Part shown: one piece after another, positions 22,194-25,126 of the stretch
How the letters are laid out: each line of letters begins with the position of its first letter
How positions within the stretch are numbered: position 1 is the first letter of the stretch
Assembly (NCBI GenBank): GCA_001917585.1
Contig: MNEG01000169.1
Span: 1 to 45,397 of the forward strand
Origin: Candidatus Rokubacteria bacterium 13_1_40CM_68_15
GTDB lineage: Bacteria > Methylomirabilota > Methylomirabilia > Rokubacteriales > CSP1-6
Length of the DNA: 45,397 nt
Direction of reading: 5' to 3'
Made by a program: the position numbers and the translations under genes
The notes under the pieces: generated by a model
What the model was told of the DNA's origin: nothing
Database searches by the model: none
What the model saw: only the letters and a program-made list of their open reading frames with translations

Positions 22194-22272
22194 GCCCGGC
22201 ATACGGTCGGGGGACTTGCCGGCGCCTGTAGGCTGGGGGGTGAAGGCCTACTTCCGAGACGAGGTGTTGCCC

Positions 22273-22644
22273 ATGCCCCAGGGTTCGACTACCTTCCATG
22301 AGTCCGAAGAGCACCTGAAACCGTCCACCCGCGACATGCATCGAGCCCTCGTGAGCCTCATGGAGGAACTGGAGGCGGTGGACTGGTACCAGCAGCGAAT
22401 GGACGCCACCGAGAACGACGACCTTCGGTCCATCCTGCGCCACAACCGGGACGAGGAGCAGGAGCATGCCGCCATGGTCCTCGAGTGGATCCGCCGGCAC
22501 GATGCGGGATGGGAACGACAACTGCGCGACTACCTCTTCAAGGAAGGCTCCATCGTGGCGCGCGAAGGCGCCGCGGAGCAGGGTAATGGCAGCGGCGAGC
22601 GGGTCAACGGCGCGAGCATTGGCTCGCTGAGGGCACGGCGATGA
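22273..22644 (+). CDS. encFtn: Encapsulated ferritin-like protein EncFtn (encapsulin cargo)
   Basis: 123 aa. It follows the Rhodospirillum rubrum EncFtn pattern closely: HRALVSLMEELEAVDWYQQR and HNRDEEQEHAAMVLEWI. With ATG 22273 as start, the ferroxidase ligands of that family fall at E32, E62 and H65, the same numbering. An AGGT Shine-Dalgarno lies 8-9 nt upstream. EncFtn forms an annular decamer that oxidises Fe(II) but cannot store iron without its shell. The tail GASIGSLRARR resembles the encapsulin targeting peptide (consensus around GSLR) and is extended by an extra ARR. The stop overlaps the encapsulin start (ATGA). Confidence 0.93.
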   Translation: MPQGSTTFHESEEHLKPSTRDMHRALVSLMEELEAVDWYQQRMDATENDDLRSILRHNRDEEQEHAAMVLEWIRRHDAGWERQLRDYLFKEGSIVAREGAAEQGNGSGERVNGASIGSLRARR

Positions 22645-23447
22645 TGGACAACCTCCGGCGCGACGCAGCTCCCCTGACCGAACGGACCTGGAAGGCGCTC
22701 GACGAGGCGGTGGCCCAGGCCGCCCGCCATGTCATGGCCGGCCGACGCGTGGCCACGTTCGATGGTCCGCGTGGCTGGGATCACGCCGCCACACGTCTGG
22801 GCACCATGAAGCCATGCGCGACGCGCGAGGGTAAGGCCACCGTCTGCGTGGCCGAGATGGCGTTGCTGGCGGAAGTCCGCACCGAGTTCACGCTGTCGTG
22901 GACGATGCTCGAGCTGTTCGACCGCGGCGCGCCCGCGCTCGATACGGGCTCGGCCGAGAACGCCGCGCGGGAAGTAGCGCTGGCGGAGGATCGGATCGTC
23001 TTCTACGGGGAGCCGGTGGGTCACGGCTTCCTGGTCTCAAAAGAGTCACCCACGGTGACCGTGCAGGACTGGGCGAAGCCAGGCCAGGCGCTGACCGACG
23101 TCCTGCATGCCGTGGAGCGGCTCGATTCGCAGGGCATCGGCGGCCCCTACGAGCTCGTGCTCGCACCGGGACGCTATTACACGTTCCTTCAGGGCACCGA
23201 GGGCGAGGGCGGCTATCCCACGTCTCGCCATCTCCGCGAGGTGGTCGCCGGCGTCCACCGCTCGAGCGTGATCCGCGATGCCGGCGCCGTCTTTTCGACA
23301 CGCGGGGATGACTTCGTCATCACGGTCGGTGGTGACCTCTCCGTCGGCTATCGCGGTCACGATACCGGGGGCGTCCACCTGTTCTGCATCGAAACGATCG
23401 CTCCTCAGCTCGTGACGCCCGAGGCGGTCTGCCTGCTTCGACCGTAG
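22641..23447 (+). CDS. enc: Family 1 encapsulin shell protein
   Basis: 268 aa. The HK97-like encapsulin markers are MMDNLRRDAAPLTERTWKAL at the N-terminus (the cargo-binding helix), then GWDHAATRLGTM, LVEVRTEF-like LLAEVRTEFTLSW, ALDTGSAENAAREVALAEDR, IGGPYELVLAPGRYY and FVITVGGDLSVGYRGHD. Shells self-assemble into icosahedral compartments around cargo bearing the C-terminal peptide, here the upstream EncFtn, and mineralise iron. Translational overlap with EncFtn suggests a coordinated cargo-to-shell ratio. Confidence 0.95.
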   Translation: MMDNLRRDAAPLTERTWKALDEAVAQAARHVMAGRRVATFDGPRGWDHAATRLGTMKPCATREGKATVCVAEMALLAEVRTEFTLSWTMLELFDRGAPALDTGSAENAAREVALAEDRIVFYGEPVGHGFLVSKESPTVTVQDWAKPGQALTDVLHAVERLDSQGIGGPYELVLAPGRYYTFLQGTEGEGGYPTSRHLREVVAGVHRSSVIRDAGAVFSTRGDDFVITVGGDLSVGYRGHDTGGVHLFCIETIAPQLVTPEAVCLLRP

Positions 23448-23632: not shown

Positions 23633-24682
23633 ATGCTCAAATCCGCGGAAATCAGGCGACAGGCTGTGCAGCGCCTCCGAGAGTTGTTTCCTCGGGCAAA
23701 GGCCTGGGAGGAGAGCCAGGACGTCGCCATTGGCGGCCAGACCGCGGATTTGATGGTGAAGTTCCGGCTTGGCGAGCAGGAGCACCTCTTGATCGCTGAA
23801 GTGTGCTCGCTCGGACAGCCCCGGCAAATACGCGCGGCCGTGACGCGCCTGGGGGAGATCCGGCGTGAGGTTCCCGCCGCCTATCCCCTCGCAGCAGCGG
23901 TCTACATCGCCCCGCAAAGCGCGCGAATCCTCAAGACCAACAACTTCGGTTACGTCGATCTATCCGGCAACTGCTACGTGGCGCTCGAGAACGTCCTGAT
24001 CGAGAAAGAGGGCAAGCGCAACGTCCGGCCGTCCACCCGGCCGCTGCGCTCGCTGTTTGCGCCTCGGGCGACCCGCGTCGTGCGCGCGCTGCTGAGCGAG
24101 CCGGCGCGCTCGTGGCGGCTGGAAGAGTTGGCGCGGGCCGCGCTGGTGAGCCTTGGCCACGCCCACAACGTCATCAAGCGCCTCGAGGAGCTGGCGTGGG
24201 CGGAGCGGGATGACCATCAACGCCTTCGCCTCACCAAGCCGGCCGATCTGCTCGAGGCGTGGGCCGAGTCCTACACCTACCGCGAGAACGAGATCCACTC
24301 GTACTTCGCGCCGGAGCGAATCAGCCGCAAGTTCATGGGTGAGGTGGCGCGGGCCGCCGACGCTGCGGGCCGGCGTTACGCCTTCACGCTCAACGCAGGG
24401 GCATTACTCGTCGCGAGTCACCTGCGCCTGCCGAACGTGCATTGCTACCTCGAGGGCGATCCGGAAGAGGTGGCGAGCGGGCTCGGTGCGCGCGCGGCGA
24501 CTGAAGCCGAGGGCACTCTTCATCTCCTGACGCCCTACGACTCCGGCGTGTTTTCCGGCGTGCTCGAAAAGGGCGGCCTCAAGGTCACCTCGCTGCCTCA
24601 GCTCTACGCGGATCTGCTTCATTACGAGCGCAAGGGCCCAGAGCAGGCGGAACATCTCCGCCGTGAGGCGATGGGGTTCTGA
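23633..24682 (+). CDS. AbiEi-type regulator (PF09952-like), orphan
   Basis: 349 aa. The N-terminal third resembles a nuclease-fold domain (DLMVKFRLGEQEHLLIAEV, QPRQIRAAVTRL, AAAVYIAPQSARIL). It is followed by the characteristic NFGYVDLSGNCYVALENVLI, then a winged helix (SWRLEELARAALVSLGHAHNV in part) and a C-terminal domain with RRYAFTLNAGALLVASHLRL. This layout matches the AbiEi family of type IV toxin-antitoxin regulators, which repress their own promoter through inverted repeats. No AbiEii nucleotidyltransferase toxin gene lies nearby; what follows, 29 nt later, are two lysine-rich micro-ORFs. It may be a solitary regulator. Confidence 0.7.
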   Translation: MLKSAEIRRQAVQRLRELFPRAKAWEESQDVAIGGQTADLMVKFRLGEQEHLLIAEVCSLGQPRQIRAAVTRLGEIRREVPAAYPLAAAVYIAPQSARILKTNNFGYVDLSGNCYVALENVLIEKEGKRNVRPSTRPLRSLFAPRATRVVRALLSEPARSWRLEELARAALVSLGHAHNVIKRLEELAWAERDDHQRLRLTKPADLLEAWAESYTYRENEIHSYFAPERISRKFMGEVARAADAAGRRYAFTLNAGALLVASHLRLPNVHCYLEGDPEEVASGLGARAATEAEGTLHLLTPYDSGVFSGVLEKGGLKVTSLPQLYADLLHYERKGPEQAEHLRREAMGF

Positions 24683-24711
24683 CCATCGCTCGGAAGGGGG
24701 TGAGCGGATCC

Positions 24712-24747
24712 ATGAAGAAGAAGGCGGCCAAGAAAAAGAAGAAGTAG
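24712..24747 (+). CDS. Lysine-rich micropeptide 1 (MKKKAAKKKKK)
   Basis: An 11-codon ORF, ATG 24712 to TAG 24745-24747, encoding MKKKAAKKKKK. A strong Shine-Dalgarno AGGGGGTGA (24695-24703) sits exactly 8 nt upstream. An in-frame GTG at 24700 would add four residues but lies inside the Shine-Dalgarno. The ORF starts 29 nt after the AbiEi-like gene and is probably on the same transcript. A perfect palindrome GGGGTCGACCCC (24748-24759) follows the stop. No known family is recognised; the evidence for translation is the ribosome site and the duplicate downstream. Confidence 0.6.
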   Translation: MKKKAAKKKKK

Positions 24748-24805
24748 GGGGTCGACCCCGATGATGGAGCGGACGACGCGGAGTAGAGAGGAGGTGAGAG
24801 CGCAT

Positions 24806-24844
24806 ATGGCGAAGAAGAAGGCGGCAAAGAAGAAGAAGAAGTAG
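24806..24844 (+). CDS. Lysine-rich micropeptide 2 (MAKKKAAKKKKK)
   Basis: A 12-codon ORF, ATG 24806 to TAG 24842-24844, encoding MAKKKAAKKKKK. A perfect AGGAGGTGA (24789-24797), complementary to the 3' end of 16S rRNA, lies 8 nt upstream, the same spacing as in micropeptide 1. The ten residues KKKAAKKKKK are identical between the two although codons differ (GCC/GCA, AAA/AAG). An in-frame ATG at 24761 would give a 27-residue form, but lacks such a site. The strong hairpin at 24894-24922 ends the unit. Function unknown; a polybasic nucleic-acid-binding or ribosome-tunnel-interacting peptide is conceivable. Confidence 0.65.
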   Translation: MAKKKAAKKKKK

Positions 24845-24893
24845 GCCGTCGTTTCTGGGGTGGGGGGTGGCGGCCTCCCACCTTGCAACTGGT

Positions 24894-24922
24894 CGGGAGG
24901 GGGCAGGCACTGCCCCCTCCCG
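24894..24922. terminator. Bidirectional hairpin between micro-ORFs and rpmB
   Basis: A perfect 13-bp inverted repeat, CGGGAGGGGGCAG / CTGCCCCCTCCCG, with a 3-nt loop. It lies between the convergent micro-ORF unit and rpmB. There is no long T tract on the plus side. The stem sequence is nearly the same as the hairpin at 30741-30772. Confidence 0.65.
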
Positions 24923-24934
24923 TTGTGCTCGTGT

Positions 24935-25126
24935 TTAAATGACCTTCGTGACCTTGCCGGCCTTCAGGCAGCGCGTACATACCCGAACACGCTGAGTCTT
25001 GCCGCCGATCTGGGCGCGCATGGACACGAGGTTCGGGAGCCAGCGCCGCCGCGTGAGCTTGTGAGCGTGACTGATCGTGTTACCCACGGAGGGCTTTTTC
25101 CCGCAGATCTCACACCGCTGAGCCAT
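24935..25126 (-). CDS. rpmB: 50S ribosomal protein L28
   Basis: 63 aa on the minus strand. It begins MAQRCEICGKKPSVGNTISH, continues HKLTRRRWLPNLVSMRAQ, and ends VRVCTRCLKAGKVTKVI. CxxC pairs at both ends make it the zinc-binding (C+) form. AAGGAG lies 6 nt before the start. Monocistronic, convergent with the micro-ORFs and divergent from recG. Confidence 0.97.
   Translation of the reverse strand: MAQRCEICGKKPSVGNTISHAHKLTRRRWLPNLVSMRAQIGGKTQRVRVCTRCLKAGKVTKVI

Follow-up and report, generated by a model that had tools for sequence, protein, structure and literature searches.

bTHX (about 26 aa), eL41 (about 25 aa), bL37 and bS22 are very small basic ribosomal proteins. Like the micropeptides reported here, they are strongly basic and easily missed by annotation. 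They combine, however, Arg/Lys with hydrophobic residues and have conserved positions, a signature not found in the polylysine peptides, whose length drifts. Attenuator leader peptides and uORFs of the thrL, hisL and pheL type likewise comprise 10-20 codons, with one amino acid over-represented, and are followed by hairpins. In contrast to such leaders, the microgenes occur in tandem, lack a conserved co-directional gene downstream and, at a second locus (locus B, see below), have their own promoter and hairpin. Bacterial histone H1-like proteins (Chlamydia Hc1/Hc2, Burkholderia/Bordetella; PF07382) are also Lys/Ala/Pro-rich, unstructured and highly basic. They are far longer (the HC2 model has 194 positions), whereas the micropeptides mostly comprise 10-18 aa, follow an extended Shine-Dalgarno (SD) sequence and are often encoded in tandem. 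Small membrane or toxin smORFs (type I toxin-antitoxin (TA) systems, TimP-like) are short, too, and encode hydrophobic membrane peptides (PMC7667032), whereas the micropeptides are purely cationic. The annotation of short ribosomal proteins is known to be difficult (PMC3353972), and one smORF catalogue has a lower limit of 30 nt (PMC11364881).

The window, a stretch of 45,397 nucleotides from Candidatus Rokubacteria bacterium 13_1_40CM_68_15, carries two tandem micro-ORFs on the plus strand. Micro-ORF 1 (24712..24747) opens with ATG 24712, encodes MKKKAAKKKKK and ends with TAG at 24745-24747. Micro-ORF 2 (24806..24844) opens with ATG 24806, encodes MAKKKAAKKKKK and ends with TAG at 24842-24844. 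Both were read directly from the sequence and are kept in relatives. The SD sites, AGGGGGTGA (24695..24703, plus strand) and AGGAGGTGA (24789..24797, plus strand), are each located 8 nt before the corresponding ATG. The final ten residues of both peptides are identical, while the codons differ (GCC/GCA, AAA/AAG). The first-pass annotation had described these tandem ORFs with their shared residues, SD spacing and TAG stops, and had placed the first one 29 nt behind the stop of an AbiEi-like gene; the sequence agrees in each respect. The SD motif AGGNGGTGA is found twice in the 45-kb window, once before each micro-ORF. Since 35 of 100 shuffled windows also contain at least two copies, the recurrence of the SD carries no significance by itself. 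When up to 3 mismatches are allowed, the 33-mer that encodes the peptide is found twice in the window and in none of 100 shuffles, and in the 4.1-Mb assembly the peptide-encoding motif is present only at these two window positions.

At this locus (locus A), the AbiEi_2-like gene is followed by SD1, ORF1, a small palindrome, SD2, ORF2, the hairpin GGTGGGGGGTGGCGGCCTCCCACC, a second hairpin, convergent rpmB and then recG. The upstream gene (23633..24682, plus strand) encodes a 349 aa protein with an HTH and an AbiEi_2-like C-terminal domain (Pfam PF09952, E=2e-5, above the cut-off), and judging from the spacing, it is probably co-transcribed with the micro-ORFs. The palindrome between the ORFs, GGGGTCGACCCC (24748..24759, plus strand), is predicted to form a small hairpin; short hairpins at this position are predicted in many, though not all, relatives. 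A strong hairpin behind the micro-ORFs had been proposed as well, and hairpins are indeed predicted there (z=-3.45 for the region). They are GGTGGGGGGTGGCGGCCTCCCACC (24859..24882, plus strand), supported by prediction and comparison and the probable 3' end or terminator of the micro-ORF transcript, and the predicted strong hairpin CGGGAGGGGGCAGGCACTGCCCCCTCCCG (24894..24922) between the micro-ORFs and rpmB, which is likely a bidirectional terminator. In 0.79 Mb, the locus-A hairpin was found in 37 copies beside micro-ORFs and nowhere else, and it shares this near-complete restriction to micro-ORF surroundings with the hairpin of locus B. The idea that both are merely generic terminators was discarded on account of this specificity, while a role in termination is still likely. 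The rpmB gene for ribosomal protein bL28 (24935..25126, minus strand; PF00830, 1.5e-21) is a conserved neighbour. It is convergent, so that no same-strand gene is present directly 3' of the micro-ORFs.

Further upstream in the window, at 22216-23447 (plus strand), an encapsulin shell gene (Linocin_M18, PF04454) is located just behind a gene for an EncFtn-like ferritin cargo, with a few bases shared between the two ORFs. In this genome, the pair lies between a zincin gene and the AbiEi_2-like gene. Among relatives, it was detected in no more than two or three: L042, L101 and, with a trace only, L100.

In Methylomirabilota, the core pattern matched 58 of 95 genomes. A looser single pattern (SD, start codon and KKK) matched 68 of 95 genomes and 31 of 33 genera, without any match in the reversed control. 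As pattern searches select for the motif itself, loci were also located by a motif-independent route, via the upstream neighbour protein (AbiEi_2-like or HEPN) and not via the micro-ORF. Orthologues of the AbiEi_2-like protein yielded 30 loci; micro-ORFs are present directly downstream in all 30, and exactly two of them in 28. A search with the HEPN protein (PF05168) yielded 30 loci in families f5, f6, f7, f9 and f10, each of them with one to three downstream micro-ORFs, three being the largest number observed in tandem. Conservation in relatives, the check recommended by the first-pass annotation, thus holds for frame, SD, peptide type and position in 60/60 orthologous loci, and the outcome that would have refuted the claim, a lack of conservation or a drift like that of neutral simple-sequence DNA, is ruled out by these data. 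The motif GGnGGTGA is kept in the SD sequences of relatives, and the SD match is extended to 8-10 nt in 107 of 155 micro-ORFs. The peptides vary in length and order and keep their character, as MAKKKATKKKKK, MATKKKATKKAAKKKK, MAKKKAKKARPKKKR and MAAKKPAAKKAAPKKAAPKKAAAKKTGKGC illustrate. In one f10 genome (G025, a single contig), MAAAKKKAATKKTATKKK is found 3' of the HEPN gene. As a computational finding, derived from comparison of genomes, a phylum-wide microgene is firm.

The upstream gene is AbiEi_2-like in families f1-f4, and an HTH + HEPN operon takes its place in the more distant families f5, f6, f7, f9 and f10. Both the HTH/HEPN pair (L305-L334) and the unrelated AbiEi_2-like protein (L335-L364) are TA-like, which was observed as a switch of the upstream gene between families. 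The micro-ORF feature does not require the AbiEi-like neighbour, because the HTH/HEPN operon replaces it in other families and because it is absent at locus B. The position of locus A behind such genes might suggest that the peptide belongs to the adjacent TA-like operon as a modulator or antidote. We consider this very unlikely: TA-like neighbours are missing at locus B and in other phyla, as would not be expected of a dedicated antitoxin, and the conserved neighbours that were examined included no recognisable AbiEii-like toxin gene. Among these neighbours, the pairing of AbiEi antitoxin and AbiEii nucleotidyltransferase toxin that defines an AbiE type IV TA system was thus not seen, although an AbiEi_2 domain is present. 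PADLOC reported only weak PDC-M05A HTH matches at the locus.

Coding constraint was assessed in a set of 155 micro-ORFs chosen by SD and K/R content; a separate search found the ORFs without requiring an SD. The peptides consist of 69% K, 21% A and 2.5% R, and among 1,898 residues there are 1308 Lys, 48 Arg and a single acidic one. Lysine columns contain AAG 763 times, AAA 83 times, AGG 7 times, ACG 3 times and GAG not once. With no GAG against 83 AAA, A-to-G changes that create Glu are excluded, whereas synonymous ones are common. The AAA:AAG ratio in the micro-ORFs equals that in flanking genes (109:1199 vs 401:4185, p=0.70). None of the 155 micro-ORFs ends with TGA compared to 113 of 312 neighbouring genes, and TGA stops are also absent from the later sets obtained by the HEPN and AbiEi routes, so that release by RF1 is always possible. 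In AT-rich Levybacteria (see below), micro-ORFs prefer AAG over AAA (62:29, 68% AAG), while neighbouring genes show the opposite (376:1480, 80% AAA; p=1.6e-21). Ribosomes slide on A runs, and iterated AAA cuts protein output more than iterated AAG (PMC4363877). Therefore, the AAG preference in Levybacteria looks like selection for accurate translation. Because of the shared ancestry of the loci, the counts lack independence and the p-values are too optimistic, but no test leaves doubt about its direction. A protein-coding gene is recognised by a kept frame, favoured synonymous changes and the exclusion of acidic and stop changes, and the micro-ORFs fulfil all of this. Selection on translation, as inferred from the two window copies alone, is supported by this synonymous drift and protein-like constraint in relatives. 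Hence, it is well supported from sequence data that the micro-ORFs are genuine translated genes evolving as coding DNA, with expression in vivo being inferred. What is conserved is positive charge and composition, small size and strong initiation, not the exact sequence.

These data bear on two further explanations. Low-complexity sequence could consist of neutral AAG simple repeats with fortuitous SD sites, but the 60/60 orthologous loci, the absence of control matches, the synonymous pattern and the stop-codon bias contradict this so clearly that the artefact was rejected and deserves practically no credence. Alternatively, the function might reside in the RNA: through its start codons and its one or two extended SD sites, a transcript could sequester 30S subunits as a decoy or sponge, with the peptide as a by-product. 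The perfect extended SD sequences, the strong conserved hairpins specific to the microgenes and the shortness of the ORFs would fit. However, a purine-rich decoy would be indifferent to K versus E, whereas selection acts at the amino acid level, tolerating Arg and excluding acidic residues, and the hairpins differ completely between lineages. As the sole function, a 30S-binding RNA decoy is unlikely.

An additional copy, locus B, is present in many f1 genomes as a complete stand-alone gene of roughly 190 bp. Its neighbours are a radical-SAM/B12 gene on one side and convergent nrdR on the other (type 1), or else an EamA transporter gene. An alignment of 32 loci revealed a promoter with an invariant TTGACA (32/32) and a TAGCAT-like -10 box, an invariant SD GGnGGTGA, a start codon, 10-13 codons, TAA or TAG and, after the stop, its own hairpin with the invariant stem CGGCCCTG...CAGGGCCG. 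In the assembly from which the window derives (84% complete), locus B was not found. Just upstream of the -35 box, two conserved palindromic boxes of ~14 bp (CCCCAnATnTTGGG) are located 31 bp apart. The pair was seen upstream of TTGACA at L041, L034, L063 and other locus-B loci, also at those without adjacent nrdR. NrdR boxes are two palindromes 15-16 bp apart, about 31-32 bp from start to start (PMC12051234). Ribonucleotide reductase (RNR) promoters of the same genomes have box pairs at similar spacing, but their sequence differs from that at locus B, and scores are near the null range. A genome scan for box pairs was uninformative, with two extra matches preceding an unrelated ORF. The geometry is suggestive, yet control of locus B by NrdR is unproven and only a lead. 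In several relatives, RNR genes (L286, L287, L291, L293, L294) have open frames of 1,195-1,593 aa with a split PF02867 match, which suggests inteins.

A short ORF rich in one codon and followed by hairpins could also be a leader peptide or attenuator that senses lysyl-tRNA or the state of the ribosome on behalf of a downstream gene. The Levybacteria microgene, which lies upstream of secA and has alternative TTGGTAA/TTACCAA pairings, would be in line with this. However, rpmB is convergent at locus A and nrdR at type-1 locus B, and neighbours elsewhere vary, all of which speaks against such a peptide; leaders, moreover, are not usually repeated in tandem. As the criterion of a conserved co-directional downstream gene was not met, this explanation was rejected on gene orientation, and we give it hardly any weight.

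Database searches did not assign the peptides to a known family. The literature contained no match that we could find for the peptide strings KKKAAKKKKK, AAKKKAAKK and MAKKKAA. In Rfam, the window had no match at the gathering score, and L041, L248, L204 and L238 had none at E<=0.1. The 10-13-mers are too short for profile searches. Among the longer micropeptides, Pfam and NCBIfam detected nothing beyond sub-threshold Hc2 similarity, confined to the longest f10 variants: 15.6 bits for Pfam HC2 PF07382 (cut-off 40, E=0.018) and 13.9 for NCBIfam Hc2 NF038052 (cut-off 135, E=0.047). Variants of f10 such as MAAKKPAAKKAAPKKAAPKKAAAKKTGKGC have an H1/Hc2-like composition with AAKKPAAKKAAPKK-type repeats. 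It appears that these Lys/Ala micropeptides of 10-13 codons (up to about 31 in some lineages) with a charge near +9 form an undescribed class.

From their conserved charge, small size and strong initiation and from the H1-like composition of the longest variants, we favour, at little better than an even chance, a polycationic micropeptide that acts on nucleic acid or ribonucleoprotein; expression, abundance, binding and target are inferred. Efficient translation would yield a free peptide as the product. This small polycation could bind and screen nucleoid DNA or rRNA/RNP and might thus act in miniature as a separate piece of a histone-H1-like C-terminal tail would. The unrelated neighbourhoods point to an autonomous function. 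On the other hand, the resemblance to H1-like proteins is one of composition and reaches none of the curated cut-offs, it is not obvious how a 10-mer polylysine would be specific for a target, and the near-perfect SD sequences and strong conserved hairpins leave room for an RNA function. The main rivals are the RNA decoy and, with more weight but still doubtful, a dedicated ribosome component or an assembly or hibernation factor (like bTHX or archaeal/eukaryal eL41) that occupies one rRNA site and is not a general polycation. Extreme basicity and shortness are properties of the known tiny ribosomal proteins, and the unrelated contexts in which single or tandem copies occur point to a housekeeping role. 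However, a residue-specific rRNA binder would not be expected to let its length and K/A/P/T/G order drift freely. Furthermore, no ribosomal protein matched in Pfam or NCBIfam for peptides of at least 21 aa, and the longest variant tried (30 aa) matched no PDB chain.

Genes of 11-13 codons are below the size that most pipelines call, yet here they are phylum-wide and under protein-level constraint, and locus B represents a complete promoter-SD-ORF-hairpin unit at such a short gene length. It seems, therefore, that entire classes of conserved peptides escape annotation. The microgenes provide a clean, testable case for the minimum length of a functional gene, for the absence of UGA stops and, in AT-rich genomes, the avoidance of AAA runs, and for the question of whether bacteria manage DNA, RNA or ribosomes with gene-encoded polycations. 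A simple DNA signature, GGNGGTGA, 4-9 nt, start codon, (A)KKK...KK and TAR, can be used for mining metagenomes.

A scan of 84,980 species genomes extended the search beyond the phylum. Among the matches listed, bacterial micro-ORFs with full SD were found in Levybacteria (MAKKKKKKK), Brocadiales, Phycisphaerae, other Planctomycetota, Nitrospirota, Omnitrophota, Endomicrobiales, Eisenbacteria and FCPU426, and archaeal ones in Micrarchaeota, Woesearchaeota and other archaeal MAGs. Long proteins of Bacilli and Methanobrevibacter and ORFs inside longer open frames were set aside as false positives. When 22 such genomes were searched again, matches were obtained in 22/22 and none in the controls; in at least one of them (L132), the micro-ORF seems to be the end of a longer frame. 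Occurrence is patchy: 2 of 198 sampled Nitrospirota, about 7 of 233 genomes of the Levybacteria class and about 12 of 51 of the family have matches, and 50 genomes of one archaeal order contained few clear cases. A cross-phylum microgene class is likely, while homology versus convergence across phyla is not decidable from 10 residues. A broader hypothesis is possible, but tentative: polylysine microgenes (8-14 codons, extended SD, never TGA, often with own promoter and terminator) could be an old cross-phylum, possibly cross-domain class that supplies uncultivated bacteria and DPANN archaea with a gene-encoded polyamine-like or H1-like polycation, and would then be among the shortest self-standing protein-coding gene types known.

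The Levybacteria unit has a TTGACA-like promoter and a rho-independent terminator. A contig labelled Nanoarchaeota (L137) appears to be misbinned Levybacteria DNA with the same microgene UTR and a secA-like downstream ORF; given the match of its flanks to Levybacteria, it was excluded from the archaeal cases. In Levybacteria (L248, L162, L170 and others), the microgene sits between serS and secA. Its 3' UTR is conserved and contains the alternative pairings TTGGTAA / TTACCAA / TTGGTAA ahead of the terminator, which are possibly regulatory.
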